Source of the DNA: Peptococcaceae bacterium 1109
GTDB taxonomy: Bacteria; Bacillota; Limnochordia; Darwinibacteriales; Darwinibacteriaceae
Direction: 5' to 3'
Assembly: GCA_001028815.1 (NCBI GenBank)
Contig: LDJB01000003.1
Location: 252,143-316,142, forward strand
Length of the DNA stretch: 64,000 bases
In this document: one piece after another, positions 14,680-33,704 of the stretch
Position numbering within the stretch: position 1 is the stretch's first letter
Layout: every line of letters starts with the position of its first letter
Translations under genes and position numbers: made by a program
The notes under the pieces: model-generated
The model's database searches: none
What the model saw: only the letters and a program-made list of their open reading frames with translations
Told to the model about the DNA's origin: nothing

Positions 14680-14696
14680 CTGTACCACCTCTTCAA

Positions 14697-16010
14697 TTAA
14701 TCTCGTGGAATTGTCGCAAAGCGGTATTTTTCAAGGACTTCTCCGATCCGATCTTTGATCAAGGCCTCAGGCTCCTTAGGGAGTTCCTCTGCCCTGACTT
14801 TCCGGTACTGACGGGGAAGATACTGACTGAGTAGGCTTAAGGGTATATCTACCCCTCTAAGGTTGTCCAGGAGCCGTTGTACAGCCGCCGCGGCCTTAGG
14901 ATGAGCCCAATAGTACCTAATGCGGTCGGACAGGCTGTAGTTGCGGGCAAAGCGGACCGCCATTTCGCTGCCTTTATAGTATGGAGCCCAGTGCTGTGGC
15001 TCAGCGAGCATCACCTCTTCCATGACACCCTGTAAATTGGACAGCTCCGCCCCAGCTAGGTCCGGAACTTGTTCCTCAATGTGTTCCAGAAGGAAGAGCG
15101 CTTCCCGCAGCACATAGGTTAGTTCTGGGCCTACCTTGAGGATCGCTACCCCATCCTCGACCATCTCCCTGAGAGCCTCTGGCTGTTGGTAGTCGGTGGA
15201 ATGCCCTTCAAACACCAAGCCAGGGTAGTGCTCCAAAGTGCGGCTGAGCTCTTGTGCTTCCGCCCGGTTGTACTCTTGAATGAAGTCATCGCCAAATTCC
15301 ACCCCTGGCTGGACCACAACTCCCACAACCTGGGGCCAGGCCGCCTCTAAACCGTGCCTAGAAAAGGCTTCCCGGGTAAGGCGAACTGTGGCGTGAAAGT
15401 CTTCGGGGGCTGTCACGTTCATTCCTTCGTTTTCGCTCATAGAGCCACCGGGTACGGGCACCTCCGTGCCAATGATGTATACAGGCCGTTGAGCATGGGG
15501 CACAGAGGCAAGACGTTCCCGGTACCCTTCCTCCGCGGCCAAGCAAAGCCGAGCAGTCCGTTCTGCAATAAGAGTGGGATCCAGGGGAACACTCCGGCTC
15601 CCATCTCCTCCAAGGTGCATGCTGGCATCCAGGTGGATCTTGGTGAACCCAGCCCGCACATACTCCCTGACTAAGGCTTCAGCCTTGGCCATTGCTTCTT
15701 CTTTGGGCTCCCCCTTCCAAGGGTTGGGGCCGAGGTGATCCCCTCCCAAGAGCACCTTCTCCTTAGGAAAGCCCACTCTTTCCCCTATGCCGTCCACGAA
15801 CTTCACGAAATCAGCCGGGGCCATGCCCGTATACCCACCAAACTGGTTCACTTGGTTACACGTTGCTTCCACCAGGACAACCTCGCCGTGCTTTTTCCCG
15901 AACTCCAGCAACGCTTCGATAACAAACTCATTGGCGCTGCACACAGAGAAAATGCCCTGAGGGGTGCCAGCCTTGTACCTTCTGATGAGTTCTTGTAAGT
16001 AATGGGCCAC
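14697..16010 (-). CDS. gatZ: GatZ/KbaZ-family protein (tagatose-bisphosphate aldolase Z subunit or tagatose-6-phosphate epimerase)
   Basis: 437-residue cytoplasmic class-II-aldolase-like TIM barrel. Diagnostic stretches are GIFSVCSANEFVIEALLEFG, VLVEATCNQVNQFGGYTGM and KVLLGGDHLGPNPWKGEP, with IHLDASMH. The GTG at 16010 is preferred because GGAGG lies 7 bases upstream; a TTG at 16025 is in frame. In enterobacteria GatZ/KbaZ stabilises the catalytic aldolase GatY/KbaY, but no GatY/KbaY is present here. Stand-alone family members have been assigned D-tagatose-6-phosphate 4-epimerase activity, which would give fructose 6-phosphate and fit this setting. Neighbours: GH4 upstream, amidohydrolase downstream. 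Confidence 0.88.
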   Translation of the reverse strand: MAHYLQELIRRYKAGTPQGIFSVCSANEFVIEALLEFGKKHGEVVLVEATCNQVNQFGGYTGMAPADFVKFVDGIGERVGFPKEKVLLGGDHLGPNPWKGEPKEEAMAKAEALVREYVRAGFTKIHLDASMHLGGDGSRSVPLDPTLIAERTARLCLAAEEGYRERLASVPHAQRPVYIIGTEVPVPGGSMSENEGMNVTAPEDFHATVRLTREAFSRHGLEAAWPQVVGVVVQPGVEFGDDFIQEYNRAEAQELSRTLEHYPGLVFEGHSTDYQQPEALREMVEDGVAILKVGPELTYVLREALFLLEHIEEQVPDLAGAELSNLQGVMEEVMLAEPQHWAPYYKGSEMAVRFARNYSLSDRIRYYWAHPKAAAAVQRLLDNLRGVDIPLSLLSQYLPRQYRKVRAEELPKEPEALIKDRIGEVLEKYRFATIPRD

Positions 16011-16027
16011 CTTCCGCCCTCCCAAAG

Positions 16028-17326
16028 CTAGTTTAGTTCAGCAATGTACGCTTTCTCCGCCTCGTAAAGCTCGTCAAACATCGCCTTGATCTCATCCAAG
16101 GAGCATACAGCCGCGGTTAGGGGATCGAGCATCAGAGCCTGCGTGGCCATTTGCCGATCCTTTTGGAGCACTGCCTCAACCGCGAGCTCAAAGAAGGCCA
16201 TGTTGCTCCGGTTCAAGGCCGCGAGGTGCTCAGGAAGGCGGCCATAGTAGCAGGGATTAATCCCGTTGCGGTTGATCATGCATGCCACTTCCACAATGCC
16301 GTCCTGAGGCAGGTTCTCAATGAGGCCTGTGTTTTTCACATTGCCGTAGATCACTTTGGGATCGTTCTTCACCATGGCCTCGATAATCACCGCTGCGTAC
16401 TCATGGCTTTTCTCCAAGGACAACTCCTTCTCACCCGCGATGAGCTGCTGGATTTCCCGATCGGTGTTCGCCCGCCAAGTGGGCCATTCGTTGGCATAGA
16501 ATCCAGTAGCACCGTTGTATCCCACGCTGCAGTGTTTGTCGATGAGGTCTTGGCGTTTGCGGTAATAGGGTATGTACTCGGAAAAGTGCCCGCTGGATTC
16601 GGTCACAAAGGCGCCCAAGTACAGCATGGCATCGAGTCGCACTGGATCGAGGGCAAGGAACTCTGGGTCTTTGGCCTTCTCCCGCAAGACTGGGTACATA
16701 TCTCTGCCATTGTGCTCCAGCGTGGTGAACCACGACATGTGGTTGATCCCCGCGCATTCCCATTTCAGCTCTTCATAGGGGACCTCAAGCATGTCCGCTA
16801 GTTTTTGGCTGGTGCCTTGCACCGAGTGACACAAGCCCACAATGGGAATGTCAGTGATGCGAGTCGTTGCTAGTGTCACAGCGGACATGGGGTTGGTGTA
16901 GTTCAGGATGGTTGTGTTAGGTGCTAGGTCTTCAATGTCTCGGACGATGTCAATCCATGCCGGGAGAGTCCGCAGGGTCTTAAAGAGCCCACCTGGCCCT
17001 AAGGTATCGCCGATGCACTGCTTGACACCGTACTTGAGGGGGATTTCAAACTCAAGCTTGACAGTGTCAAGGCCGTGGACTTCAATTTGGTTGATGACAA
17101 AATCGGCCCCAGCGAGAGCGTCCCGGCGCTCAGTGGATGAGCGCACCTTCCAGTTCTTCCCCAGCCTATTGATGACCATTTCCACCAGCTTGTGGGCAAG
17201 CTCCAAGCGCTTGGGATCGATATCCACAAGGGCAAACTCCCCCTCATCGAGCCCTGCGATGCTGAGAATGTCCACAGCCAGATGCCGGGTAAACATGCTC
17301 CCTGCACCAATAATAGCGATCTTCAT
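16028..17326 (-). CDS. GH4 family glycosidase, MelA-type alpha-galactosidase-like
   Basis: 432-residue NAD- and metal-dependent GH4 enzyme. The dinucleotide motif is KIAIIGAGSMFTRHL; further family blocks are CIGDTLGPGGLFKTLRTLPA (104-123), NYTNPMSAVT (142-151), GLCHSVQGT (164-172) and ECAGINHMSWF (190-200). Metal ligands are inferred as Cys166 and His196. The GDTLGPGG and CHSVQG forms match the MelA branch acting on unphosphorylated alpha-galactosides. Beside an AgaS-like isomerase and GatZ, the substrate may be an alpha-galactoside or alpha-N-acetylgalactosaminide. The ATG at 17326 follows GGGAGGAACGG. Confidence 0.88.
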   Translation of the reverse strand: MKIAIIGAGSMFTRHLAVDILSIAGLDEGEFALVDIDPKRLELAHKLVEMVINRLGKNWKVRSSTERRDALAGADFVINQIEVHGLDTVKLEFEIPLKYGVKQCIGDTLGPGGLFKTLRTLPAWIDIVRDIEDLAPNTTILNYTNPMSAVTLATTRITDIPIVGLCHSVQGTSQKLADMLEVPYEELKWECAGINHMSWFTTLEHNGRDMYPVLREKAKDPEFLALDPVRLDAMLYLGAFVTESSGHFSEYIPYYRKRQDLIDKHCSVGYNGATGFYANEWPTWRANTDREIQQLIAGEKELSLEKSHEYAAVIIEAMVKNDPKVIYGNVKNTGLIENLPQDGIVEVACMINRNGINPCYYGRLPEHLAALNRSNMAFFELAVEAVLQKDRQMATQALMLDPLTAAVCSLDEIKAMFDELYEAEKAYIAELN

Positions 17327-17343
17327 ACTCCGTTCCTCCCCTC

Positions 17344-18381
17344 TTAGTTACCAAGGTCAATCATGGGTTCTAAGCCCGCAGGCAGGTCCGGGTTGAGGCC
17401 CTTGTTGAGAGCTTTGTAAAGCCCCACTGCTTGCGGTATAAAGATGAAGGGTATGCCCGCAACCCCGTAGTTTGCATAGCGGGGGACATCCACTTGCCAG
17501 TCAGAACCCCAATCAGCCCCAGTGTGGCTTATGGTTACTACCTTAGCCCCTCGCCCCTTCAGATCTCTGATCAAGTCCCGCTGCAAGGTATACTCCTCGG
17601 GAGATAGGGCCACGACAGCCAAAGTCTTCTCATCCACCAAAACCATGGGGCCGTGGCGCACGTCCAGGACGTGGTAGTAGTTTGCGGCGATCTGGGGGAT
17701 CTCTGAAAAGGCGATGGCAGCTTCCTTGGCGATGCCATCCAGCTCAGAATCGGCCAGCACTATAACCTTCTCCCAGTCCGCGGCGGCGATCTCCTTTGCC
17801 AAACCAGTGTACTTCTCCATGAAACCTGGGCCGCCGTTGATAGCCTCATCGATTTCCGCCAGAAGGCGCTGATCGTTAGCAAGGATCGCGATAAGCACTA
17901 GGTTAGCAGCATACAGGTTTGTGACGGTACGGGTTTGGCAGACACTTTCGTCAAAAGCCCAGGGAATCTCCAGGCTGAGGTCTGCAAGCTCCCCAAGGGG
18001 TGAGCCTTCCTTCGCAGAAATCCCGATAACAGGCACCCCCATAGCCTTGGCCTTCTTTACAGCCAGGACAACTTCACTAGTACCGCCGGACCTGGAAGGG
18101 GCAATTAGCATTGAACCTTGCAGGAGTTGCTCGTAGTGTGCGAAGTTCACCAAGAGGTCCCCGCCCGCTACAGCGTTTGCAGGTAGGCCTAAGCGCAGCT
18201 TGGTGGATGTCTCTGCAGCCTGACACAAGCAGTAGCCAGAACCGCATCCCACAAAGGTGAGGCTCCGCGGTTTATGGCCCTCATACAATTTCCGCACCTG
18301 TTGGGCGTTGGCGAGCAGATAATCGTAAGTCTGGCGCAGTGCATGGTATTGGCTAAAGATTTCTTTCTCAGTGAGATACAT
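17344..18381 (-). CDS. Tandem-SIS sugar-phosphate isomerase/deaminase (AgaS/GlmS-like)
   Basis: 345-residue cytoplasmic protein with two SIS domains. Domain 1 (about 35-170) has the phosphosugar loop LTFVGCGSGYC and APSRSGGTSEVVLAVKKAKA; domain 2 (about 195-340) has IQ-type IAFSEIPQIAANYYHVLDVRHG with the Glu-His segment RHGPMVLV, seen in AgaS and the isomerase half of GlmS. No glutaminase domain is present, so it is an AgaS-type amino-sugar-phosphate deaminase or isomerase. It is the second gene of the GntR-SIS-GH4-GatZ operon; galactosamine 6-phosphate to tagatose 6-phosphate would link it directly to GatZ. Confidence 0.85.
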   Translation of the reverse strand: MYLTEKEIFSQYHALRQTYDYLLANAQQVRKLYEGHKPRSLTFVGCGSGYCLCQAAETSTKLRLGLPANAVAGGDLLVNFAHYEQLLQGSMLIAPSRSGGTSEVVLAVKKAKAMGVPVIGISAKEGSPLGELADLSLEIPWAFDESVCQTRTVTNLYAANLVLIAILANDQRLLAEIDEAINGGPGFMEKYTGLAKEIAAADWEKVIVLADSELDGIAKEAAIAFSEIPQIAANYYHVLDVRHGPMVLVDEKTLAVVALSPEEYTLQRDLIRDLKGRGAKVVTISHTGADWGSDWQVDVPRYANYGVAGIPFIFIPQAVGLYKALNKGLNPDLPAGLEPMIDLGN

Positions 18382-18462
18382 AGCCCTCGTCCTTCCTGTT
18401 ATATTGTCATGACAAGAAGTGCTGTAAACAAAGGAAACACTGAGGTTTCCTCGTTAGACTGC

Positions 18463-19188
18463 CTATTTAAGATTGACTTCAAAGCGGAAGCGGTCGCCTC
18501 TCACAACCCCCACTGTGTACTCCACGCAGAGGCCGCCCGCATAGGTGAAACGCTCAAGATCCAGCGCGGGGCTGCCTGGAGGCAGCTTAAACAGCTCCCC
18601 TTCTCGGCGGTTAATGGCCACGGCCCCAAAGGTCTCTTTGGCTGAGTCCACTACCACACCGTACTTATTGCGCAGCACATCATAGAGCGGGGTAGTATCC
18701 AGTTCGTCTTTGGAAAGATCCGGGAACAGATTCACAGGCAAGTAAGTGGATTCAATAGCCATCAAGGTATCATCTGCGAAGCGCAGCCGCTTGAGGTAAT
18801 AGACTTCATCGCTTTCCCGCAAGTTCAAAGCTTCCGCGATCTTAGGCGTGGGGTGCCCCACCTTAAACTTCTCCACTTCATTGCGAGGGTTTAGCCCCCG
18901 CTTGCGAAACTCCTGGGAAAAGCTGTAGAAGCTGGTGAGCTGCTGTTCTATCTTAGGAACAGTCACAAAGGTGCCTACTCCCTGGCGGCGCCTGACTAAG
19001 CCGTCCCTTTCCAGTTCAGCCAAGGCCTGCCGAACTGTAATCCGGCTCACGCCGTACTCTTTACACAGTTCAAACTCGGACGGCAGCCGATCGCCCACTT
19101 GCCACTCGTTGTTCATAATCTTCTGGGCGAGGATGGTCTTTAGCTGATGATATAACGCCACCGGTGAGTTTTCCTTGATCAGTGCCAT
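18463..19188 (-). CDS. GntR-family transcriptional regulator (HutC/UTRA type)
   Basis: 241-residue repressor. The winged helix motif is RLPSEFELCKEYGVSRITVR (about 34-53) with wing RRRQGVGTFV; the UTRA effector domain spans about 85-238. It begins the operon with the SIS isomerase, GH4 and GatZ. Its ATG at 19188 follows AAGGAG. A strong promoter with a CATTA-n5-TAATG palindrome over its -10 box lies just upstream, consistent with autorepression; the effector is probably an amino-sugar phosphate. Confidence 0.88.
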   Translation of the reverse strand: MALIKENSPVALYHQLKTILAQKIMNNEWQVGDRLPSEFELCKEYGVSRITVRQALAELERDGLVRRRQGVGTFVTVPKIEQQLTSFYSFSQEFRKRGLNPRNEVEKFKVGHPTPKIAEALNLRESDEVYYLKRLRFADDTLMAIESTYLPVNLFPDLSKDELDTTPLYDVLRNKYGVVVDSAKETFGAVAINRREGELFKLPPGSPALDLERFTYAGGLCVEYTVGVVRGDRFRFEVNLK

Positions 19189-19312: not shown

Positions 19313-20563
19313 TTAGAACAGGCTCTTTGTAGCCTGATCCAATGCTTTTACAGCTTCCTCTACACTGCGCTCGCCGCTCCACATGGTATCAAACTCACGG
19401 GTCATGGCAGCGTAGAACTGATCACTCTGGACAAACAGTGGGAACGGCTTGGCGTGTTCCATTACGTCCAGGAAGTACACCTTGTGCTCAGGCTTGCCTT
19501 CCAGCCCAGCAAAGGCAGGCCCGTAGGCAAGTTCCTCAATGGCTGGAATACCCATGCGAGTCTCGCCAACAATGCGCTGGCCTTCTTCGCTGATCAGGAA
19601 TGTGAGGAACTGGAAGGCCGCATCGGCGTTCTTGGCACCCTTAGGCATGGTCCAGTAGTTTACCCACAGGCGAGTGGACGGCTCGCTGTCCTCATCCCAG
19701 AGCGGTAGCGGCACAACGTCCCACTCCAAGTCTTCGGCGTTGGCGAAGCTGTTGGCCCAGCCAACGGTGGTCACGTACATCGCTGTCCTCTGGCTGAGGA
19801 AAGCACCGGAAGCGTTGGAGAAGGTGCTGGTCAAGGCAGGGGCAGGGGCAATACCTTCCACAACCATGCCTTGGAGGAACTCTAGGACTTCAACCGCGTT
19901 AGGCAGGTGCAATCCGCTGCCAGTCCCATCTGGGTTGATGACGCTAGCACCGTTCAGGTACAGCCAGTCGATGAACCCGTCAGAGAAGGTGTCGAAAGCG
20001 TAGCCATAGACCTTTGTCTGAGAGCCATCCTTCTGGACCAGAGCACGGGCGGTCTCAAGGAACTCTTCCCTGGTCCAACCGGGCTGAGGATAAGGCACGC
20101 CAGCTTCATCAAATAGCTTCTTGTTGTATGCAACTACACTGGTTGTTGCATCTCGGGGGAATGCATAGATGCCGCCATCGATTTCAATGGCATCAACCAC
20201 TGCTGGGAAGAAAGCGTCCAAGTTAACGCTGTACTTCTCCATGTATGGGCGAAGATCTTGGAGTGCACCCCGAGGTACCCAGGTTCCCAGTTTGTCCATA
20301 CCCAGCATGGCCACATCGGGAGGGGTGCCGCCGGCAACCATGGTGAGCACCTTGGTGTAATATTCAGATGAGGGGATCTGAACGAACTCGACTTCAATCT
20401 CAGGATTCTGTGCCTCAAAGGCATTCTTCAGTGCATCCAGGGAGCTGCCGCTTTCAAAACTCCACCACGAAGCAACTTGAATCTTGGTTTTTGCTGCTGC
20501 TGGCAGTGCTGTGAAGGCAAAGATCAAGGTCAGAGCAAGAGCAATGTGCAGTAGTCTTTTCAC
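19313..20563 (-). CDS. Extracellular sugar-binding protein, family 1 (CUT1)
   Basis: 416-residue SBP with signal peptide VKRLLHIALALTLIFAFTAL (cleavage near PAAAK) and mature start TKIQVASWWSFESGSSLDAL. Family-1 features include GGTPPDVAMLGMDKLGTWV, YAFPRDATTSVVAYNKKLFD and the C-terminal FQFLTFLISEEGQRIVGE. The GTG at 20563 is chosen because AAAAAGGAGG lies 7 bases upstream; an in-frame ATG at 20587 would put that site inside the gene. It is the last gene of its operon, after both permeases, the reverse of the other importers here, and is followed directly by a terminator. Confidence 0.9.
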   Translation of the reverse strand: MKRLLHIALALTLIFAFTALPAAAKTKIQVASWWSFESGSSLDALKNAFEAQNPEIEVEFVQIPSSEYYTKVLTMVAGGTPPDVAMLGMDKLGTWVPRGALQDLRPYMEKYSVNLDAFFPAVVDAIEIDGGIYAFPRDATTSVVAYNKKLFDEAGVPYPQPGWTREEFLETARALVQKDGSQTKVYGYAFDTFSDGFIDWLYLNGASVINPDGTGSGLHLPNAVEVLEFLQGMVVEGIAPAPALTSTFSNASGAFLSQRTAMYVTTVGWANSFANAEDLEWDVVPLPLWDEDSEPSTRLWVNYWTMPKGAKNADAAFQFLTFLISEEGQRIVGETRMGIPAIEELAYGPAFAGLEGKPEHKVYFLDVMEHAKPFPLFVQSDQFYAAMTREFDTMWSGERSVEEAVKALDQATKSLF

Positions 20564-20614
20564 TTGACATCCTCCTTTTTTTGTCATCAGAATACACAGC
20601 TTACTTCCAGTACC

Positions 20615-21460
20615 TTACCGGCCGCCAAACCCTGACAGGGCAATCCCTTGGGTAAAGAAGCGCTGTCCTAGGGCAAAGACAACCAGCGTTGGAATGAGCG
20701 CAATCAAGGTCCCGGCAAGCATCACCTCCCACTCTACACTGTACATCCCTCTAAAGAACGACAACCCAACTTGAACTGGCATCTTGGAGGTATCGTTTAC
20801 CACAATCAAAGGCCACAAGAATGCGTTCCACTGCGAGCGGAACGTGAAGATGGCCAAGGATGCCAAGGCCGGTTTGGCCAGGGGCAAGATGATCCTCCAA
20901 TAGAGGCCGAAGCGGGAACAGCCGTCGATGCGCGCGGCCTCTTCCAGCTCGTAGGGAACTGTCAAGAAGAACTGCCGCAGCAAGAACGTGCCAAAGGCGG
21001 AAAAGGCTGATGGCAAAATCATGGCAGTATACGTGTTCAGCCAGCCCAAGTAGCGCATCAATATGAAGTTGGGGATGATCACTACCTGGCCGGGAATCAT
21101 CAAGGTTCCCAGGTACAACAAGAACAGCTGATCCCGCCCAGGAAACTTCATCCGGGCAAAGGCATAGGCAGATAGCGAGCACGTTACAAGCTGCAAAATC
21201 ACTACGGCCACGGTGGTGTAAAAGCTGTTCAGCAAGAACCTGCCGAAGGGAACCCGATGCCACGCGGTGGCGAAGTTCCTCAAGGTTGCAGGATTGGGTA
21301 TCCACTGCGGCGGATACACCAGGGCGTTCCCAGAAGTCTTCAACGCCGTGGACACGGTCCACAGGAAAGGCAGAACCATGCCGCCAGCTACGAGAATGAG
21401 GATCACGTAGGCCCACAGCCTGCCCCACTTCTGTCCAGGTGCAGTGCGTTGTTTATTCAT
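20615..21460 (-). CDS. CUT1 sugar ABC transporter permease, MalG-type
   Basis: 281-residue inner-membrane permease with six predicted membrane segments; the first is LWAYVILILVAGGMVLPFLW. The EAA loop is EEAARIDGCSRFGLYWRIIL (about 194-213) and the C-terminus FFTQGIALSGFGGR is typical. It overlaps the MalF-type gene by 8 bases and precedes the SBP gene by 51 bases. No ATPase is encoded nearby. It should transport the substrate of the glycosidase-like protein at 22334. Confidence 0.92.
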   Translation of the reverse strand: MNKQRTAPGQKWGRLWAYVILILVAGGMVLPFLWTVSTALKTSGNALVYPPQWIPNPATLRNFATAWHRVPFGRFLLNSFYTTVAVVILQLVTCSLSAYAFARMKFPGRDQLFLLYLGTLMIPGQVVIIPNFILMRYLGWLNTYTAMILPSAFSAFGTFLLRQFFLTVPYELEEAARIDGCSRFGLYWRIILPLAKPALASLAIFTFRSQWNAFLWPLIVVNDTSKMPVQVGLSFFRGMYSVEWEVMLAGTLIALIPTLVVFALGQRFFTQGIALSGFGGR

Positions 21461-22337
21461 AATGCACCCACCTTCCTTGATACTTAAACTGAATCAGGGT
21501 CAAAGCAAACACCATAATAAACAAGACCCACGCCACCGCTGAGGCATACCCCATGTTGAACCACTGAAAAGCATTGCTGTAGATGTAGTAAACAATGGTC
21601 TCAGTGGAGCCCGAAGGCCCGCCGTTGGTCATGATGAACGGCTGTTCAAAGATGTTGAACACCCCGATCATCTTCATAACCACTACAAAAAACATCGTCG
21701 GAGACAACAGGGGCAGGGTAATCTTCCAGAACTGCTGCCACTTGGAGGCGCCATCTAGTTCTGCTGCCTCATAGAGCTGTCCGGGAATGGACTGCAGCCC
21801 TGCCAGGAAGATCACCATGTAATAGCCCGCGTACTGCCAGATGTGCATTAGAATCAAGGACGGCTTAGCCCAGGTAACAGATCCGAGCCAGTTAGGCGGG
21901 TTCGCCCACCCGAGTGAGCGCAAGAGGTAGTTCAGCACGCCGAACTGGGGGTCAAGGAGCCAGATCCACACGATTCCCACGGCAATGGTGGAACTCACTG
22001 AGGGCAGGTACATGATGGTGCGGAACAGCGTCATGCCCTTGAGAGTCCTGTTGCAGATGAGCGCCAACAACAGCGATACGGCCGTTCCCAGTGGCACGAT
22101 CCCCACCACAAAGTACAACGTATTCAGGAGTACCCTGCGAAAGTCTCTGTCAGCCTGGATGAGCTGGAAGAAGTTCCGCAGGCCCACATAAGCGGGAGTG
22201 CTGAACAGATCCCATTTGTGCACACTGATCCACAAGGAAAACAGCACTGCAAAAACTGTAAATGCGAGAAAGCCGATTAGGTTGGGCAAGAGAAAGGCCC
22301 ACGCCTCCCACGTTTCTCTGCGCCTTCTGCGCTTCAT
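21453..22337 (-). CDS. CUT1 sugar ABC transporter permease, MalF-type
   Basis: 294-residue inner-membrane permease: basic N-terminus KRRRRRETWEAWAFLLPNLI, six membrane segments, and EAA loop YEAAELDGASKWQQFWKITL (about 190-209). Its start overlaps the stop of the 693-residue protein gene by 4 bases (ATGA), so translation is coupled. It forms a pair with the MalG-type gene at 20615. Confidence 0.92.
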   Translation of the reverse strand: MKRRRRRETWEAWAFLLPNLIGFLAFTVFAVLFSLWISVHKWDLFSTPAYVGLRNFFQLIQADRDFRRVLLNTLYFVVGIVPLGTAVSLLLALICNRTLKGMTLFRTIMYLPSVSSTIAVGIVWIWLLDPQFGVLNYLLRSLGWANPPNWLGSVTWAKPSLILMHIWQYAGYYMVIFLAGLQSIPGQLYEAAELDGASKWQQFWKITLPLLSPTMFFVVVMKMIGVFNIFEQPFIMTNGGPSGSTETIVYYIYSNAFQWFNMGYASAVAWVLFIMVFALTLIQFKYQGRWVHYE

Positions 22338-24415
22338 TGTTCGCTCCCCTCCACGTGCCAGCGCACTGCGCTAAACAGCGCAGGGGGCACCTGAATCACT
22401 ATATGTCCGTCAACTGCAACAGCTCGATGCTCTTGCCACGCTCCGGTGGTTCCGTCTAGCACCTGCAGGGCCACGTCGCTCTCTCCAGGCAGCTCTACCT
22501 TAAGCTCACCAGGCTCACCACTGGAATTGGCTGCCAAGAGGACTGTGCTGCCATCTCTTGCCTGCCACCGTGTCGCCGTGATGCCTTCTGCCGCTGTTAG
22601 GCCTTGGCTATCCAGGAAAGTGCCAGTCCCGATAAACCTCTGCACCTCACCTCTAACTCGCAGCGCCTGGTGCAGGCGGCTCAGCATGGCTTCCAGGCGG
22701 CCTTCATCGCTGACCCGCTTGCGGAACACCTCACCCTCAAACCAGAACACGCTCCCGAGGACAAACGCTCGCACCAGGTCAGCCATGAACATCTGCTCCT
22801 GCTCTTCTGGAGTGAGGCCTGGCATCACCCTAGGGGCAATCATGTTCACCAAGGTGTGCTCGGGGAAGGTGTACTTGTAGAGGTTGAAGTACTCATCGTA
22901 GGCTGTGCCGTTCCAAGCAAGGCTCCCCCACAAGCGGCTGGAATAGATGTCACCGCAGTTTTCAATCATGAGGAAGCTGTCTTCCCGCACCTTGCGGATC
23001 TTCTCCGTTGTGCTCTCGATGAGGTCCATATACCCTTGGTTGAATCCGGAAGAACCAGCTGCCGGCCCATGTTCGTGATCGCTGTAGCACGGATAGGGAG
23101 TGGCAGAACCGAGCTGATCATAGTAGATTCCTCTAGCGCCATAAGCCTGAACCATCCACACGGCGAAATCCTCAAGCATCTGCCGCCATTCTGGATTGGA
23201 CGGGCAGAGGACAAACGTCTCCGCTGGGCCGTATACTTCGTAGATGGGGCTTTGCTCTAGGGTGCGCAGCATCAAACGCTCCCCGAGGGTTTCAGCATAT
23301 TCAGAGTACTTATCCATAATGCGGGCATTGATGTAAAACGTCACAAAGCGCCCCTTGGAGTTCACATAATCCACTCCCCGCTTGAGGGACATGGGCGTGC
23401 CAAGCTCAAGGTCAGGGTTGTAGTTGGGGTAGTGGCTGTCAAAGCCCATATGGTTCCACCCAGCCATGAAAAAGTGACGGCTGCCAAACTCATCGAAGTC
23501 CCCATCGGACATCTCGGGGATATCCGCAAAAGTGTGATCAATGCCGTCGAAGCGCCGGAAGTTGTAGTGCGGCGACAAGACAAATTCTTGGCTTAAATCC
23601 GCGGGGTGCTCCACCTGTTCCACAACTGTATCAAACCATGCCCGATACCTGTGGGCGGAGAGGTGCCAATCACCGCCGTGAAACGCCCACACAATGGGGG
23701 CTGAGGTGTAAGACTGCCCAGGTTCGATATCAACGTATTTGCGGAAGCTTAAGCTGACCCACCGGTTCGCTGGGCCCCCTGTCTCGATTCTCAGGCCCGT
23801 TACGGGAAAGCCTGGATCGTGGGAAGCCACATAGACCCCGTAGTCCCCATCAGAGAGATCCATGTACGTCATAGATGCGAGGCCGCAGTAGTTAATCTCC
23901 CGTTCAAATCCGAAATCTGTGGGCTTACTCTCCGCCCGCCAAAACTTCTGATACTTCTCGCTGGCCAAGGCAGCAGGTACATCCACGATCCGCTCCCCAG
24001 CGTGATGGGGATACATTAGCTCTGCCTGCTCAGATACGTAGATTTGAGGAAGGCGGGGATAGAGGACCTCACAGATGGGAAGTCCACACCCGTTATGAAG
24101 CTCCAGCCCCCAGGTGCCCGTACCATCCTCTGCCACCATCAGCCTCAGTTTACCTGCGATGGGATATGTCTCACCGCAGGATGCCTTGCACTTGTCAAAC
24201 TCCCACTGGGCTGCGTGCCCTTGTTGATCCGCCCGTAGATCCTCCGGGATAACCACGATGCGCTCTGTGCCGTCCCGCAAGGCAAACTCTACGAGAGGAA
24301 GCTGAGCTTGTTCCTTGATTGGTAAAGACTTGCCCTGCAACTTCCAATTTCTAAAGGACCCTGAACTGTGCTCCAACGCGAACTGCATATCTTTCCGCTG
24401 TATCCACGACATCAT
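22334..24415 (-). CDS. Large cytoplasmic glycosidase-like protein (DUF6259-type, TIM barrel)
   Basis: 693-residue protein with no signal peptide. It has an N-terminal beta-sandwich (about 1-260), a central barrel (about 275-610) and a C-terminal small beta domain (about 625-690). Barrel strand motifs such as GRFVTFYINARIMDKY, GARGIYYDQLGSATPYPCY and SFLMIENCGDIYSS look like retaining glycosidases of the broad GH-D/GH101-like type; Asp433 and Glu485 are candidate nucleophile and acid/base. I believe this is the DUF6259 group, but cannot confirm. It is coupled to an ABC importer and follows a SIS protein and a NagK-like kinase, so an intracellular alpha-glycoside of an amino sugar is a fair guess. 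Tandem ATGs at 24412-24415 follow GAGGGGGGAG. Confidence 0.7.
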   Translation of the reverse strand: MMSWIQRKDMQFALEHSSGSFRNWKLQGKSLPIKEQAQLPLVEFALRDGTERIVVIPEDLRADQQGHAAQWEFDKCKASCGETYPIAGKLRLMVAEDGTGTWGLELHNGCGLPICEVLYPRLPQIYVSEQAELMYPHHAGERIVDVPAALASEKYQKFWRAESKPTDFGFEREINYCGLASMTYMDLSDGDYGVYVASHDPGFPVTGLRIETGGPANRWVSLSFRKYVDIEPGQSYTSAPIVWAFHGGDWHLSAHRYRAWFDTVVEQVEHPADLSQEFVLSPHYNFRRFDGIDHTFADIPEMSDGDFDEFGSRHFFMAGWNHMGFDSHYPNYNPDLELGTPMSLKRGVDYVNSKGRFVTFYINARIMDKYSEYAETLGERLMLRTLEQSPIYEVYGPAETFVLCPSNPEWRQMLEDFAVWMVQAYGARGIYYDQLGSATPYPCYSDHEHGPAAGSSGFNQGYMDLIESTTEKIRKVREDSFLMIENCGDIYSSRLWGSLAWNGTAYDEYFNLYKYTFPEHTLVNMIAPRVMPGLTPEEQEQMFMADLVRAFVLGSVFWFEGEVFRKRVSDEGRLEAMLSRLHQALRVRGEVQRFIGTGTFLDSQGLTAAEGITATRWQARDGSTVLLAANSSGEPGELKVELPGESDVALQVLDGTTGAWQEHRAVAVDGHIVIQVPPALFSAVRWHVEGSEQ

Positions 24416-24426
24416 AGCTCCCCCCT

Positions 24427-25173
24427 CTAGTAACCTTGCTCTTCATAACGAGCCCGCGCCGCAGCGTTAAGCTTACCCGCATCGGGAAGGTGGTTGCTCA
24501 CGTATGCGCTGGGTTTGAGGCCCCGGGCTACCAGCTGCTCCACCACTTCTGCTTGCAGAGCCCAGTTAATGTACGAAGCGGCAATCCCCGAGGCGGGGCA
24601 GATCTTCTGGCCGCCCAACTCTTCCACCTCAACCAACGCATCTCCGTACGGAACACAGTTATCGATCACCAGATCTGCCATCTCAAAGAGGCGCTTTCCC
24701 GAAGGGTGCTTGCTCTGGAACCGCTTCGATGCACCCACGCTTGTTAGAGCGATGGTCTTAATCCCCCGCTCCCGGGCAAGGCAAGCCATCTCAACTGACA
24801 TAACATTGATGCCCGAAACGGATCCAATCAGGATCACATCCCCTGCCTGCACTTTCGCTTGCCCTAAAATATACCGAGGCAGGTCCGCGATCTGATCCAT
24901 AAAGAACGGTTCGGGATTAGGAGGAAGCGGGCGCGGCCTTACAGGATGGGCCACCCGGATTTCGCTGTGAATAGGCGTTACCATCATCAGGCCCCCAGCC
25001 CTTCCCACTGCCTCGAACATGAGCATGTGTCCAGTATCAAAGAGGTGCCAGACTCCCCCGTTCACCACCGACTCCACAATGGCCTCCGCGGCCGCCCGGA
25101 TCGGCTCCTTCTGGGTCTGCTCGATTGCTTCCAATACGTTCTTCATCTCAACGAAGTAGCGCTCTGCCAGCAT
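24427..25173 (-). CDS. SIS-domain protein, UPF0309-like sugar-phosphate binding
   Basis: 248-residue cytoplasmic protein with a single SIS domain (about 20-190). Motifs: GGVWHLFDTGHMLMFEAVGR, the phosphosugar loop ILIGSVSGINVMSVEMACLA and IALTSVGASKRFQSKHPSGK, and DLVIDNCVPYGDALVEVE. This matches the uncharacterised UPF0309/YgfZ-unrelated SIS group often found with sugar importers. It lies between the BadF kinase and the glycosidase-like gene, 11 bases from the latter. It may isomerise or deaminate the sugar phosphate made by the kinase; the precise reaction is unknown. Confidence 0.8.
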   Translation of the reverse strand: MLAERYFVEMKNVLEAIEQTQKEPIRAAAEAIVESVVNGGVWHLFDTGHMLMFEAVGRAGGLMMVTPIHSEIRVAHPVRPRPLPPNPEPFFMDQIADLPRYILGQAKVQAGDVILIGSVSGINVMSVEMACLARERGIKTIALTSVGASKRFQSKHPSGKRLFEMADLVIDNCVPYGDALVEVEELGGQKICPASGIAASYINWALQAEVVEQLVARGLKPSAYVSNHLPDAGKLNAAARARYEEQGY

Positions 25174-25203: not shown

Positions 25204-26196
25204 CTATTGCGCTTCCCACATGGCCGCGGCATTCTCGCCGATGGCCTGCACCCGTTCGGGAGTGACTTCCGCCTGAGCCAGTTCGTAACCGAGAATAATG
25301 GCCCCGATCCATGGTTCATACTGAGGGGATACATATCGTGCCTGGGGAACCATCCGGGATAGGGCATCCTGAAATGCCTCCACCACCAGCGGGTTGCAAA
25401 GGGGTACCCCCCCAACCAACGAAATATTCACAGGCTCACTGCCAACCCCCAGGCGCTCGCTCAAGTTAGCCGCGAGCCGAGCCAGCTCTATCCCTGCCCG
25501 GCGCAGAATGTCTTGCGCGATCTGATCCCCATCCCGGGCCGCCTGAGCCACTAATGTAGTCAAGGCTGAAATCCGCTGCCTGTTCACATACCGTGAATAG
25601 ACAAACACCCGGAGTTCGGCATCGAAAGAATAGTGCAGAGCCCGGCGGAAAATTCCCTGCAATGATGTCCTGGGGCCCCGTCCATCTGCTGCGAGGGCCA
25701 CTGCCTTCAAGGCCTCAAGTCCAATCCAGTAACCGCTCCCTTCGTCTCCAAGGAGCGGGCCCCAGCCTCCGTTAGTAAGCCATTTGCCCTTCCACAAGCC
25801 TGCGGCAAAGGAACCAGTCCCGGAAAGGGACACGATGCCATCACCATAGGGAAGGGCACCCCGGAAAGCCGCGGGAGCATCCCCTTCCACCTTAATCACT
25901 GCATTAGGGCACAGATCCCGCAGAGCCATCTCTGCCACAGCATCAGGAAAGCCTGGAGCAGATATATAGATCGCCTTTACGGCCGGTTCTGGGCTTGGGT
26001 CCTTTGCTGACCGTCCCAGCGATGCGGCAACTGCGCCTCGCATAGATGCGATAGCATCTTGGTCGGAAACAAAATGGGTATTGGTGGCACCGCCGTATCC
26101 CATGCCCACCAAGCGACCACCTAGAGTAACAGTGCCAGCGATTGTCTTGGTCCCGCCGCTGTCAACGCCAATTATTAGAGTGTCTTCTGCCGCCAT
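25204..26196 (-). CDS. BadF/BadG/BcrA/BcrD-type ATPase, GlcNAc/MurNAc kinase-like
   Basis: 330-residue ASKHA sugar kinase. Visible motifs are LIIGVDSGGTKTIAGTV (phosphate-1), VSLSGTGSFAAGLWKGK, and GDEGSGYWIGLEALKAVAL; the C-terminal adenosine loop is INISLVGGVPLCNPLV-like (VNISLVGGVPLCNP). The ATG at 26196 with GAGAGGTGG 5 bases upstream is preferred; an ATG at 26214 overlapping the GntR stop as ATGA is in frame but weaker. The group includes N-acetylglucosamine and N-acetylmuramic acid kinases (MurK). It belongs to the GntR-kinase-SIS-glycosidase-importer operon and lies 900 bases from the murQ/mupG cluster, to which it might also supply phosphorylated amino sugar. Confidence 0.86.
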   Translation of the reverse strand: MAAEDTLIIGVDSGGTKTIAGTVTLGGRLVGMGYGGATNTHFVSDQDAIASMRGAVAASLGRSAKDPSPEPAVKAIYISAPGFPDAVAEMALRDLCPNAVIKVEGDAPAAFRGALPYGDGIVSLSGTGSFAAGLWKGKWLTNGGWGPLLGDEGSGYWIGLEALKAVALAADGRGPRTSLQGIFRRALHYSFDAELRVFVYSRYVNRQRISALTTLVAQAARDGDQIAQDILRRAGIELARLAANLSERLGVGSEPVNISLVGGVPLCNPLVVEAFQDALSRMVPQARYVSPQYEPWIGAIILGYELAQAEVTPERVQAIGENAAAMWEAQ

Positions 26197-26210
26197 GACT
26201 GCCACCTCTC

Positions 26211-26933
26211 TCATTCCCGTTTCAAGTTGAAGTGAAGGATGTACCGATCCGCTCGATAAAAGGTGCGGTTGTACATTACCCGCTGATCCCCCACGCCGTC
26301 GATCTGCCGCTCTACCACAAGAATGACCAAGTTGTCCTCTCCTGGCCCCAGCAGTTCGGTCTCTACGGGTGTTGCCATGCGGGCGGTGACGAATTCTTCT
26401 GCGTGGACGAGGCTTAAGTGGTAGTCCTCGTCAAGCAGGCGTTCCACATCTACGCCGGCGAGGTTGTGGGAGAAAAGATTAGGACAAAGGCCTGCGGGAA
26501 TGTAAATGTGATCCACCGCCACAGGGGTGTTGTCTGCCAGGCGCAGCCGGGCGATATAATACACTTCACTTTCTTCCGATATCTGAAGATGCCAGGCCAG
26601 CTCTCCCCTCACTTTGGTTTTCTCCTGTGCGATGAGTTGGCTGCTGGGCATAAGGCCCCGGCTTCGCATTTCTTCAGTAAAGCTGCGCAAGGGGTTCCGC
26701 ACACGGGATACCCGGACAAAGGTTCCCCTGCCCGGGGTCCTTTCCACCAATCCATCGGCCACCAGCACGCCGATGGCTCGTTTCACCGTGGAAGTGCTCA
26801 CGTTGAACTCCTGGCTGAGCTCCTCCTCAGAGGGAAAGCGGTCGCCAGCCTTGAGCTGTCCAGAGATAATCCTGCGCTCTAGTTCGTTCTTGATAGCTAG
26901 ATAATGGGGCAAGCTGCCTTTCTGCTGAGCCAT
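26211..26933 (-). CDS. GntR-family transcriptional regulator (HutC/UTRA type)
   Basis: 240-residue repressor. The helix-turn-helix is RFPSEEELSQEFNVSTSTVK (about 33-52) with wing RTPGRGTFVRV, and the UTRA domain covers about 85-238. The ATG at 26933 follows GAGGAG. It opens the operon down to the terminator at 19271. TAATG-type repeats overlap its own promoter (26956-26992), similar in half-site to those before the GntR gene at 18463. Confidence 0.88.
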   Translation of the reverse strand: MAQQKGSLPHYLAIKNELERRIISGQLKAGDRFPSEEELSQEFNVSTSTVKRAIGVLVADGLVERTPGRGTFVRVSRVRNPLRSFTEEMRSRGLMPSSQLIAQEKTKVRGELAWHLQISEESEVYYIARLRLADNTPVAVDHIYIPAGLCPNLFSHNLAGVDVERLLDEDYHLSLVHAEEFVTARMATPVETELLGPGEDNLVILVVERQIDGVGDQRVMYNRTFYRADRYILHFNLKRE

Positions 26934-26955
26934 AAGCAACTCCTCATCTTCATTG

Positions 26956-26992
26956 CATTAATGCTATTAATGACATTATTAGACGGAATCAA
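26956..26992 (-). promoter_or_regulatory. Candidate promoter and operator of the GntR operon
   Basis: On the minus strand TTGATT (26987-26992), a 17-base spacer and TAATAG (26964-26969) form a weak sigma-A-type promoter. The inverted repeat CATTA-n7-TAATG (26956-26972) overlaps the -10 box, and TAATG-n-CATTA occurs just beside it. The layout suggests autorepression. Confidence 0.4.
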
Positions 26993-27044: not shown

Positions 27045-27071
27045 AAAAAAGGGAGCGCTGTTCGCGCTCCC
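27045..27071 (-). terminator. Rho-independent terminator of the mup/mur operon
   Basis: A perfect 8-bp stem (27051-27058 with 27064-27071) followed on the minus strand by TTTTTT lies 16 bases after the nucleotidase-like gene. It ends the long operon that starts with mupG at 37720. Confidence 0.8.
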
Positions 27072-27086: not shown

Positions 27087-27698
27087 TTATCCTAGCCGTT
27101 TGACATTGACTCTGGGGTGCATATCTAGAAACTGTTGGGCATGCATCCTGATATCCTCCCAAGAGTAGACTACCGTCATCGATTCCTGCTTATCCACATT
27201 GTGACTTGCATGAAACATCAATGTGTAAATATTGTGTGCCTTCAGATCCACGCAGTTCTCATAGTGGTCATCAACAAAGAACTCCACTCCAAGCCTCTGG
27301 CACAGCTCCCCCTTGGAAAAGGGCCTAGTAATATCCTCCCGCATGTACAGCCGGTGATAAGGGATCTCATGCGCTGCGAGCCAGCGCAAGGTCACCGGCC
27401 TGAACTGCGCTCGCCGGGCAGTAATGAGATAGATTAGGTGACCCTGGGCAATCAGCTCATGGAGTACCTCGCGGCACAGCGGGCGTGGTGGCATCGCCTC
27501 CAAAACCGCCTCGGCCTGTGTGGCCACAAAATCATCCACCTGCTCCCGAGTAACCTTGAAGGCTTCCTGCAGAGAATATACATTCTCCACTATGGGCAGG
27601 TCGAAGTAGATACTGGCTGCCTTCAGCCAACGATTCTCTTTCCCGTCATCTTCGTTAGTCAGTACGCAGTCGATATCAAACCCGAAAATGATGCTCAT
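27087..27698 (-). CDS. HAD-superfamily 5'-nucleotidase-like protein (NT5C type)
   Basis: 203-residue cytoplasmic HAD phosphatase. Motif I is FGFDIDCVLTNE with Asp8 and Asp10; motif II is LIYLITARR (Thr); motif III/IV is VEFFVDDHYENCVDL. The family includes deoxyribonucleotidases (PF06941-like) and many uncharacterised bacterial phosphatases. Its ATG overlaps the RpiR gene stop by 4 bases, so it is a coupled final member of the mup/mur operon. In this setting it may dephosphorylate a sugar phosphate or nucleotide sugar; no direct evidence. Confidence 0.78.
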   Translation of the reverse strand: MSIIFGFDIDCVLTNEDDGKENRWLKAASIYFDLPIVENVYSLQEAFKVTREQVDDFVATQAEAVLEAMPPRPLCREVLHELIAQGHLIYLITARRAQFRPVTLRWLAAHEIPYHRLYMREDITRPFSKGELCQRLGVEFFVDDHYENCVDLKAHNIYTLMFHASHNVDKQESMTVVYSWEDIRMHAQQFLDMHPRVNVKRLG

Positions 27699-28507
27699 TC
27701 TGTACTCCTGTTGACGTTTTTCCCGCGCTGGCTACGCAAAGCAACCCCAACAGCCAGCACCTCCACAGCACATAACTGAACGATCCTGGCAGATAGAAGG
27801 CTGCTGTCCACCGTATTCTCTGCAAATGATGTCAGCAAGACAATGTCCGCGGCTCTCGCCAAAGGTGAATCCACCGTTGCGGTCATTCCTATGGTGGCCG
27901 CACCGGCCTGTCTCGCGATAGTCATTGCATGGCATACCTCGTACGTATAGCCTCGGGCTGAAATGCCGACTACCACCTGACTCGGGTCCAGCAAGGCTGC
28001 ACGGGTTAGCTGCATATGCGTATCTGTAACTGCTAGCGCCCTTAGGCCAATTTGCGCCAGCTTCTCCTCCCCCTCCTTGGCTACTAATCCGGAAGCACCC
28101 AAACCGAACAGGTACACTTTGTCCGCCGCGCATATGGCACGAATCGCCCTGTCTAGCTCCTTGACATTAAGCATGCAGGCAGTGTCCCGCAAAGCATTGA
28201 TGTGCATCTGCAATGTCTTCTGCTTAACATCCTCCACTGCATCAGCTTTTTGGATCTGGGAACTCCCATGGGGATATCTCACGGCAATAGCTTGAGCCAG
28301 TGCCATCCTAAACTGCGAAAACCCTTGGTAACCCAACGTTTGGCAAAACTTGACGACAGTGCCATTACTGACCTGCGCTGATTCTGCAACCTGACTGATG
28401 GTTGATCTCACAACAGCACCAGGATGACCGAGGATTCGCTCTGCAATCCTGCGGAATGCAGGGTGAAGTGTGGGGAGCGTCGCGCGTATAGCCAGCAGCG
28501 GGTCCAT
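27695..28507 (-). CDS. murR: RpiR/MurR-family transcriptional regulator
   Basis: 270-residue regulator with an N-terminal HTH_6 domain (about 1-77; STISQVAESAQVSNGTVVKF is the DNA-binding part) and a C-terminal SIS domain (about 110-245; KVYLFGLGASGLVAKEGEEK and VVGISARGYTYEVCHAMTIA). MurR-type proteins sense MurNAc 6-phosphate, and the gene lies 11 bases downstream of murQ. It is placed late in the operon it probably controls. Palindromes upstream of mupG (37784-37798, 37886-37898) are possible targets. The symbol reflects context more than sequence proof. Confidence 0.8.
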   Translation of the reverse strand: MDPLLAIRATLPTLHPAFRRIAERILGHPGAVVRSTISQVAESAQVSNGTVVKFCQTLGYQGFSQFRMALAQAIAVRYPHGSSQIQKADAVEDVKQKTLQMHINALRDTACMLNVKELDRAIRAICAADKVYLFGLGASGLVAKEGEEKLAQIGLRALAVTDTHMQLTRAALLDPSQVVVGISARGYTYEVCHAMTIARQAGAATIGMTATVDSPLARAADIVLLTSFAENTVDSSLLSARIVQLCAVEVLAVGVALRSQRGKNVNRSTE

Positions 28508-28518
28508 AGCAAATCTCC

Positions 28519-29445
28519 TTACGTATCAGTGGTACTGCTAAGGGCCAACTTCAAAGCGTGGCCTAGGATGCCTTGGCCTTGCCGCAAGTACTCGCTAGCC
28601 TGGGAAAGGGTACAGCCTGCCAACTGCATGACAACCGCTTCTTTGATGCGCCAATCAGAGAGTTTAAGCAGGCGTGCTGCCTCCTCAAGTGACGCCCCAG
28701 TAAGCTCTGCTACCATCCGCATTGCCCTAAGGCGCAGCTTTTCATTGGTCACCAGCATATCAACAAGGAAATTCTGATACACGCGACCGAGCTTGATCAT
28801 CACCGTTGTGCTCAGTAGATTGAGCACGATTTTCTGCGCCGTCCCTGCTTTCATGCGAGTGGAACCAGTGACGATTTCAGGCCCAACTACCACTTCGATG
28901 GCCACATCCGAGAGCTCAGCGATGGGCGCATTGCGGTTGCACGTCAACCCGATGGTGGCAGCTCCCACTTCCCTCGCTTTCGCCAAGCCCCCTAATACGT
29001 ATGGGGTTCTCCCACTAGCTGTAATGCCCACTACTGCATCAACGCTGCTGAGGCCGTCCGCCGACAGCTCCTTTGCCCCCGCTTCAGCATCGTCCTCAGC
29101 GAACTCTACAGCTTGTTGAATGGCCCTGGGGCCGCCAGCAATAAACGCCTTGACCATTTCTGAACCGGCTCCAAAAGTGGGCAACAGCTCAGCAGCATCG
29201 AGGATTCCCAGCCTACCGCTGGTCCCTGCTCCGAGATAGAACATCCGGCCCCCCTGCTTCAGTCGTTCGGCGATTAGGTCGATGGCTGCCACAATGCTAG
29301 GAATCTGGTCAATCACCGCTGGCAGCACTTTGCTCTCTTCTCCGCATGCTAACCGCACAATCTCCTCTGTGGACAAGCTATCGATCCACAATGACTCTGT
29401 GTTCCGCACCTCCGTTATCAGACCGGCTAAATCGGCTATCGTCAT
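28519..29445 (-). CDS. murQ: N-acetylmuramic acid 6-phosphate etherase
   Basis: 308-residue cytoplasmic etherase that removes D-lactate from MurNAc 6-phosphate, giving GlcNAc 6-phosphate. The SIS domain has MFYLGAGTSGRLGILDAAEL (68-87) with Glu85, a second acid at Glu114 (QAVEFAEDD), and VGITASGRTPYVLGGLAKAR; a three-helix CUE-like C-terminus ends the protein. These match the acid pair described for E. coli MurQ (Glu83/Glu114). The length is typical. It follows the DppF-type ATPase gene by 39 bases in the operon with mupG and the ABC importer, which defines the cluster as a peptidoglycan-sugar pathway. Confidence 0.93.
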   Translation of the reverse strand: MTIADLAGLITEVRNTESLWIDSLSTEEIVRLACGEESKVLPAVIDQIPSIVAAIDLIAERLKQGGRMFYLGAGTSGRLGILDAAELLPTFGAGSEMVKAFIAGGPRAIQQAVEFAEDDAEAGAKELSADGLSSVDAVVGITASGRTPYVLGGLAKAREVGAATIGLTCNRNAPIAELSDVAIEVVVGPEIVTGSTRMKAGTAQKIVLNLLSTTVMIKLGRVYQNFLVDMLVTNEKLRLRAMRMVAELTGASLEEAARLLKLSDWRIKEAVVMQLAGCTLSQASEYLRQGQGILGHALKLALSSTTDT

Positions 29446-29484
29446 ACAGTAAACTACCTTTCCAAACGTAATGTGCAGGTCATC

Positions 29485-30498
29485 TTAAGACACGCCGCGC
29501 AGCGAAAGCTGACTGGCAAAATGGCAGGCGGCTGCGTGATCGCTGTCTCCGCTCACCTCGCTTAATTCCGGTCTTTCCCGTTTACAGATATCTGTCGCAT
29601 ACTTGCAGCGTGGGTGGAAATGACACCCTTGGGGCGGATTTGCGGGGTCCGGTACCTCTCCTTCCAGCAGAATCTCATCTTTGTCCGCTGTAGCACTTGC
29701 TCGGGGGACCGCCGCCAAGAGCGCCTCGGTGTAAGGATGCCGTGGATTGGAGAACAACTCGACCGTATCAGCCACCTCTACAATGCGCCCAACATACATT
29801 ACCGCAACTCGATCGCTGATGTGCTCAACCACACTTAGGTCATGGGCAATAAACAAGTACGTGAGGTTTAGCTTCTCCTGCAGATCCTGAAGCAAGTTCA
29901 GGATCTGGGCCTGTATGGACACATCCAAAGCTGAGACCGTCTCATCGCAGACTATGAAACTGGGATCTAGGGCCAGTGCTCTGGCAATACCGATTCGCTG
30001 CCGCTGGCCGCCGCTAAAGGCATGTGGATAGCGGTTCATATACTCTGGCCTGATCCCCACCTGTTTGAGGAGCTCCCGCACCCTTGCATCCCGCTCCTGG
30101 CGGTCCTTCACGCCGTGAATCAGGAGGGGTTCTCCTACGATTTCCCGTACCGTCATGCGTGGATTTAGTGACGAATAGGGATCTTGGAAAATCAACTGCA
30201 TCTGACGCCGCATAGCCCGGAGAGAGTCATCTTGCAGGGCGGTAATATCTATAGCGCCGTTGTCAGCATGGTAGTAGACTTTTCCCGCGGTAGGCTTGAT
30301 GGCCCGGAGGATACACCTCCCCACCGTTGTCTTACCGCAACCGCTCTCTCCCACTAATCCTAGGGTCTCGCCTTGGCGTATCGTAAAGCTCACATCATCA
30401 ACAGCCCTGACGTGCCCTACGGTCCGGCGGAAGAAACCTGATGTAATGGGGAAATACTTCTTTAGACCTTGAACCTCAAGCAAGACCCTACCCTGCAT
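29485..30498 (-). CDS. Opp/Dpp-type ABC transporter ATP-binding protein (DppF-like)
   Basis: 337-residue cytoplasmic ATPase. It has Walker [13 protein letters not shown], signature [14 protein letters not shown], Walker [15 protein letters not shown], and the Opp/Dpp C-terminal extension [13 protein letters not shown] with the cysteine block [16 protein letters not shown]. The ATG at 30498 follows GAGGTGG and overlaps the DppD-type gene by 11 bases. A longer hydrophobic frame to 30687 lies antisense-like inside the neighbour and is not part of the gene. It pairs with the other ATPase to power the importer at 31515-33639. Confidence 0.92.
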
Positions 30499-31504: not shown

Positions 31505-31514
31505 CGTCTTTCAC

Positions 31515-32642: not shown

Positions 32643-32655
32643 GGCCCACCCCTCC

Positions 32656-33639: not shown

Positions 33640-33682
33640 GCTATCACTCCTCCCCGACCTCTCCGCGACGAGCATTGGATGG

Positions 33683-33704
33683 GGGGCGGCGTGGTCACCG
33701 CCCC
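33683..33704 (-). promoter_or_regulatory. Intercistronic stem-loop upstream of the DppB-like gene
   Basis: A 7-bp GC stem (33683-33689 with 33698-33704) lies between the TIM-barrel gene stop and the DppB-like start. No T-run follows on the minus strand. It could protect the SBP-side mRNA or reduce read-through into the membrane genes. Confidence 0.45.

Follow-up and report, generated by a model that had tools for sequence, protein, structure and literature searches.

A DUF6259 protein encoded with an ABC importer, a BadF-family kinase and a UPF0309 protein: a predicted intracellular alpha-glycosidase

Gene organization of the locus

The window (the whole stretch of 64,000 nucleotides that was analyzed) contained an operon transcribed from one strand in the order GntR regulator, BadF kinase, SIS protein, DUF6259 protein, two permeases and sugar-binding protein (Table 1). 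The coupling of the DUF6259 gene to an ABC importer, described in the first-pass annotation, was borne out by the two permeases and the binding protein, all on the same strand, and the BadF kinase, SIS protein and GntR regulator that it had named were also present on that strand. The reported overlap between the DUF6259 stop and the MalF-type permease start amounted to 4 bp (ATGA). No ABC ATPase gene was found in the operon, and the nearest solved chains of the sugar-binding protein were assorted sugar binders, which did not reveal its ligand. An Rfam scan of the window gave no match.

The inverted repeat located just 5' of the GntR gene, for which 0.12 matches would be expected in the window when 2 mismatches are allowed, had no second site in the 2.7 Mb genome with 1 mismatch or fewer, and was found at a similar place before the GntR gene of three related loci (exact in L097, near in L019 and L105; L numbers designate loci of the comparison). 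This uniqueness, together with the shared position in L097, L019 and L105, suggests from sequence that the operon, with its putative GntR operator, is dedicated and self-regulated.

Table 1. Features of the DUF6259 operon and of the region directly upstream. Positions are those of the window.
Feature	Position	Strand	Evidence or remark
Extracellular sugar-binding protein, hydrophobic N-terminal signal	19313..20587	-	SBP_bac_1 158 bits
MalG-type ABC permease	20615..21460	-	ORF; conserved beside DUF6259 gene in related loci
MalF-type ABC permease	21453..22337	-	ORF; recognizable permease neighbors in 27/30 clade I loci
DUF6259 protein, predicted intracellular alpha-glycosidase	22334..24415	-	PF19773 97.6 bits; model pLDDT 92.4; NagBb Z 25
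SIS_2 protein, UPF0309, subfamily SIS2a	24427..25173	-	PRK02947 219 bits
BadF-family sugar kinase	25204..26214	-	BcrAD_BadFG 122 bits
GntR/UTRA repressor, first gene of the operon	26211..26939	-	Pfam UTRA 99 bits, GntR 74 bits; overlaps kinase start
Putative GntR operator, inverted repeat CATTAAT-AGC-ATTAATG	26956..26972	.	Exact palindrome, just 5' of GntR gene
Intrinsic-terminator-like hairpin closing the upstream MurQ/MurR/HAD genes	27051..27071	-	8-bp stem then TTTTTT
NT5C-like HAD phosphatase	27087-27698	-	
RpiR/MurR-type regulator	27695-28507	-	
MurQ	28519-29445	-	
Family 5 binding protein	34636-36573	-	Opp-type ABC genes in the same set
MupG 6-phospho-N-acetylmuramidase	36614-37861	-	

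A peptidoglycan-salvage set (27087-37861, minus strand) was located directly upstream of the operon. Its MupG/MurQ/MurR-type genes form a transcription unit separate from the DUF6259 operon, and no MurQ/MurR-type gene set was seen beside the closest relatives of the window locus. A second sugar unit (13627-19188, minus strand), composed of genes for a GntR regulator, a GlmD/AgaS-like SIS protein, a GH4 enzyme, a GatZ/KbaZ-like aldolase subunit and an amidohydrolase, resembled amino-sugar or galactose-type catabolism. These downstream GntR/SIS/GH4/GatZ genes were considered as part of the DUF6259 operon and rejected, because a second regulator and a gap intervene and the closest relatives do not carry them. 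Elsewhere in the window, a sulfatase (PF00884) adjoined a pyrimidine nucleoside phosphorylase (43850-46649, minus strand), and a GntR regulator, a PfkB kinase and a second GH4 enzyme were encoded in a row (1678-4905, minus strand).

The DUF6259 gene and its family

The DUF6259 gene encoded 693 amino acids, as originally proposed, from an ATG start and was immediately preceded by a purine-rich ribosome-binding stretch (GAGGGGGGAGC). By eye, the N-terminus of the protein (MMSWIQRKDMQF...) was without a hydrophobic signal segment, in agreement with the lack of a signal peptide noted earlier. The family assignment proposed then was borne out by hmmscan: the protein matched DUF6259 (PF19773) over residues 241-502 with 97.6 bits, against a Pfam gathering cut-off of 28.7. 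PF19773 matches were present in 25 of the 299 sampled genomes of the phylum (E 0.001 or better, about 8%), which establishes a real gene in a widespread family rather than a chance ORF. The NCBIfam search of the protein gave no match, and plain phmmer against the PDB gave chance matches only. A literature search found no paper naming DUF6259 or PF19773, and no reported activity for any member of the family.

Predicted fold and candidate catalytic residues

The AlphaFold2 model, built with 37 homologues (pLDDT 92.4, pTM 0.93), consisted of a beta-sandwich, a barrel and a C-terminal beta-domain, the layout given in the first-pass annotation, and the barrel carried the two proposed acids at D433 and E485. 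VIA placed the GH129 alpha-N-acetylgalactosaminidase NagBb at the top of the ranking (Z 24.7-25.0, 3.6-3.8 Å, 549-567 residues), followed by the galactosaminidase FpGalNase (Z about 22, 598 residues) and ZgGH129 (Z about 21); GH13 and GH36 chains appeared at Z about 20 and lower (about 19 in the case of GH36). The best PDB matches in Foldseek (FpGalNase, GH36 enzymes and ZgGH129) belonged to the same fold group as those of VIA. The structural neighbors of the predicted model name this group as GH129, FpGalNase/GH36 and GH101, with an identity to the characterized neighbors of only 10-12%. The Pfam models for GH129 (PF11308), GH101 (PF12905) and GH36 did not match the protein in hmmscan (GH129 was unlisted at E up to 1), nor did any Pfam model of a characterized CAZy family, and a wider-family DUF6259 profile matched ZgGH129 with E 3.5e-4, covering the N-terminal sandwich. 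By sequence models the protein lies outside GH129, GH101 and GH36; its mode of action is most likely that of an enzyme of this fold group. Searches for GH129 genes (149 genomes of the phylum) and for FpGalNase relatives (query, an 88-residue piece), run without a positive control, were both empty.

The residues singled out as catalytic in the first reading, D433 (in GIYYDQLG) and E485 (in MIENCGD), were both invariant across the 37 homologues (23-61% identity), and C404, C443, H447, H449, C487 and D489 were likewise invariant down to 23% identity. From the DSSP string, with strands counted by hand, D433 and E485 were each located at the end of a barrel strand, the former on strand 4 (429-436) and the latter on strand 5 (481-486). 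In a profile alignment with FpGalNase, D433 was paired with D463, C487 with C513, and H447/H449 with H476/H478; the hhalign E of 4.9e-6 applies to a preselected FpGalNase fragment and is not a database E-value, the database-search E being only 0.33. The D463A and C513A replacements nearly abolished FpGalNase activity (PMC11762096). FpGalNase has C511 at the E485 position, and no clear counterpart was seen for its essential D532.

GH101 enzymes showed the same Asp/Glu order: the Asp lies in YVDVWGN and the Glu in VVTNEF, one strand further on, and these residues are marked by the SpGH101 mutants D764N and E796Q listed in PDB titles. This correspondence was made by eye and from strand order, because hhalign with a single GH101 sequence left the catalytic motifs unaligned (DUF6259 family, E 0.24, wrong register, not significant). 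Judging from the sequences, D433 is, with good confidence, the candidate nucleophile; conservation and strand order point, with moderate confidence, to E485 as the candidate acid/base.

The kinase and SIS partners

The best solved relative of the BadF kinase was the MurNAc/GlcNAc kinase 8zo3 (E 2e-30), with a hexokinase and human NAGK (E 5e-16) next; the NCBIfam NagK model scored 101 bits, under its equivalog cut-off of 370. The SIS protein matched the putative isomerase 3cvj (E 4e-30) and NagS 9eol (E 2e-22). NagS (SCO4393 from Streptomyces) is a GlcNAc-6P dehydratase which acts less well on ManNAc-6P and does not bind GalNAc-6P, and relatives of about 30% identity have no NagS activity (PMC12680351). 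Three of the four essential NagS residues (H53, R64, E94 and D179) were kept in the SIS protein of the window, which has Asp in place of E94 and does not carry the complete NagS set. Concerning the import-cleave-phosphorylate-isomerize unit of the first-pass annotation, the genes stood and the “isomerize” step is unproven, because NagS, in the same UPF0309 family, is a dehydratase.

Two SIS2 subfamilies were distinguished in the cassettes: SIS2a, the window type (D-T-G-H-M-L-M), and SIS2b, which keeps most or all of the NagS residues and was present in 16 of 30 clade I cassettes (see below). A SIS2b paralogue, more NagS-like, was encoded in the genome of the window about 70 kb away from it, adjoining another GntR-like gene, and NagA and a NagB-like gene were present elsewhere in the genome. 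At locus L121 (8157-12608), a NagS-like SIS2b gene stood beside a GntR-like gene, and a nearby GH4 gene was close to alpha-galactosidases (603 bits).

Two clades, a conserved cassette and recurrent phosphoesterases

In a maximum-likelihood tree, 47 DUF6259 sequences were divided into 35 clade I rows (motif ENCGD) and 12 clade II rows (EGCGD or similar), the clade I split being supported 100/100. The window gene belonged to clade I, with L019 and L020 as closest relatives (60-61% identity). Usable flanks were available for 30 clade I loci, of which 29 carried a UPF0309 SIS gene, 27 a permease, 24 a BadF kinase and 23 a GntR regulator; the 12 clade II loci had a permease in one case and no SIS, BadF or GntR gene of such types. 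A distinct clade II group (about 660 amino acids; L095, L100, L101, L107 and L110) was mostly found beside opposite-strand genes for sugar-binding proteins, without kinase or SIS genes. MurQ was encoded inside 4 of the 30 clade I cassettes, all from the Paenibacillus group.

A phosphoesterase was encoded within 10 kb in 18 of 30 clade I loci vs. 0 of 12 clade II loci; these counts are descriptive, since the probes were drawn from those same loci, and the sole control is clade II, searched with identical probes. The types varied: in the Paenibacillus branch, an MBL-fold hydrolase and a secreted, beta-propeller-bearing calcineurin-like phosphoesterase; in another clade I branch, a secreted alkaline phosphatase fused to an endo/exonuclease-phosphatase domain and a PHP protein; and in L019, L097 and L105, which are among the closest relatives, a cytosolic calcineurin-like protein encoded directly after the binding-protein gene. 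No phosphoesterase genes of such types were present in the operon of the window, and the L019 phosphoesterase was not found in the genome of the window in a search run without a positive control.

Two of the secreted proteins may be described here. That of L022 (12671-16237) and its homologues had 1,188 residues and joined a GH114-associated domain, a calcineurin-like phosphoesterase and a PQQ-type beta-propeller, a combination which looks unusual. The fusion of secreted alkaline phosphatase with an endonuclease/exonuclease/phosphatase domain was encoded at L046 (4347-7250) and L093 (1051-3990).

The DUF6259 clade split, the conserved clade I cassette and the phosphoesterase link are newly found here. 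As unrelated phosphoesterases have been recruited to one cassette, the pattern is best explained by a phosphate in the clade I substrate. The recurrence of these genes around the relatives was outside the view of the first-pass annotation and alters the likely substrate.

Proposed pathway and alternative explanations

With a confidence slightly better than even, the DUF6259 protein is proposed to be an intracellular retaining alpha-glycosidase which acts on an imported glycan fragment, one that probably bears phosphate, and frees a (N-acetyl)hexosamine from it. We infer the following steps, their direction included. A MalEFG-type ABC importer, with its ATPase encoded elsewhere, would import a short glycan fragment, phosphate-bearing or phosphate-trimmed; the fragment probably carries phosphate, given the recurrence of phosphoesterases, secreted as well as cytosolic, in these cassettes. 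The DUF6259 enzyme would cleave off, with retention, a terminal amino sugar in alpha linkage, either GalNAc, GlcNAc or the free amine, D433 (end of beta-4) acting as nucleophile and E485 (end of beta-5) probably as acid/base. The N-acetylhexosamine set free would then be phosphorylated at O6 by the BadF kinase, and the resulting sugar 6-phosphate may be dehydrated, or altered in a related way, by the UPF0309 SIS protein. A teichoic-acid-like wall polymer is the preferred source of the substrate, suggested by the phosphoesterases, by MurQ in the four Paenibacillus-group cassettes and by the upstream MupG/MurQ/MurR-type genes. A more ambitious version, tentative and rather doubtful as a whole, is that clade I cassettes constitute a dedicated, undescribed pathway in which secreted phosphodiesterases cut an amino-sugar-decorated phosphopolymer (for example teichoic acids), the ABC system brings glycosyl-polyol or glycosyl-phosphate pieces into the cell, and DUF6259, as a new CAZy family, frees the alpha-linked amino sugar there and makes it available for phosphorylation and dehydration.

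GH36 alpha-galactosidases occupied much of the Foldseek list, and a GH4 relative of alpha-galactosidases was encoded downstream in the window, observations that would fit an intracellular alpha-galactosidase, or another neutral-sugar alpha-glycosidase, of GH36-like descent, with the kinase and SIS protein serving some other step or sugar. Such an activity is unlikely, however, given that VIA ranked GH129 and FpGalNase over GH36, that the GH36 lysine preceding the nucleophile (K461 in FpGalNase) is an invariant Tyr431 in DUF6259, that both conserved partners, the kinase and the SIS protein, are similar to N-acetylhexosamine enzymes, and that related loci did not show the GH4 gene alongside the cassette. 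Salvage of peptidoglycan amino sugars is a further alternative, but the linkages of peptidoglycan are beta-1,4 and those cut by the fold group are alpha. In that pathway a muropeptide or anhydro-sugar would be imported, the kinase would form MurNAc-6P/GlcNAc-6P, MurQ would remove the lactate, and DUF6259 would split a glycosidic bond in the fragment. The MupG, MurQ and MurR-type genes adjoining the operon, the MurQ genes within four Paenibacillus-group cassettes and the similarity of the kinase to a MurNAc/GlcNAc kinase are all in its favor, but no more than 4 of the 30 cassettes contain MurQ and the recurrent phosphoesterases are not required for such salvage, and we regard this role too as improbable.

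A non-hydrolytic or degenerate protein, binding or sensing carbohydrates with a barrel fold, is very unlikely: the invariance of D433, E485 and the six further residues (C404, C443, H447, H449, C487 and D489) down to 23% identity is the pattern of a kept active site, even though DUF6259 has no known activity and the Cys of FpGalNase at the E485 place indicates that mechanistic residues vary within the group.

The intracellular alpha-glycosidase reading assigns DUF6259 to the GH129/FpGalNase fold group and names candidates for its catalytic residues, so that it can be tested directly as a new family of glycosidases; enzymes of this group are of interest for stripping alpha-GalNAc/GalN off blood cells and mucins. 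A concrete hypothesis of soil and digester bacteria feeding on phosphate-bearing glycans, perhaps wall teichoic acid, is provided by the clade I cassette, which also supplies a pathway context for UPF0309 sugar-phosphate enzymes.

Comparison with known systems

The partners of the DUF6259 enzyme may be compared with characterized amino-sugar enzymes. MurK (8zo3) and NAGK were the closest solved relatives of the BadF kinase, pointing at the sequence level to homology with N-acetylhexosamine kinases. The SIS partner, a member of UPF0309, was like NagS in keeping H53, R64 and D179, and differed in that SIS2a carries Asp instead of E94 and His instead of N228, its GHML loop being shortened.

As for the enzyme itself, GH129 NagBb (5wzn, 5wzp) was alike in fold over the whole length (Z 25, 3.7 Å over 552-567 residues) and in its three-domain layout, and the 3,6-anhydro-D-galactosidase ZgGH129 (8rzk) was similar in whole-length fold (Z 21), in its three domains and in the profile match (E 3.5e-4); GH129 enzymes differed in having only 10-12% identity to the DUF6259 protein, and PF11308 was unmatched. 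FpGalNase from Flavonifractor plautii (8x1b, 9awt) shared the fold (Z 22 over 598 residues) and the aligned D463, C513 and CY-x3-H-x-H motif, but had 12% identity, an essential D532 with no clear counterpart, and C511 where DUF6259 has E485. It acts on the blood group A antigen jointly with a deacetylase (PMC11762096), whereas the DUF6259 protein is predicted to be cytosolic and is encoded with an importer. The model had the overall fold of the GH36/FpGalNase group (Z 22 for FpGalNase, about 19 for GH36), without the GH36 Lys-x-Asp motif, of which the Asp aligns and the Lys is replaced by Tyr431, and with no clear counterpart of the GH36 acid/base Asp (D532 in FpGalNase). The GH101 endo-alpha-N-acetylgalactosaminidases EngBF and SpGH101 resembled the DUF6259 protein in the beta-4 Asp, the next-strand Glu and the preceding stretch G(W/Y)..-GxD...P, but are much larger enzymes, with no significant profile comparison and no match to the Pfam GH101 model.
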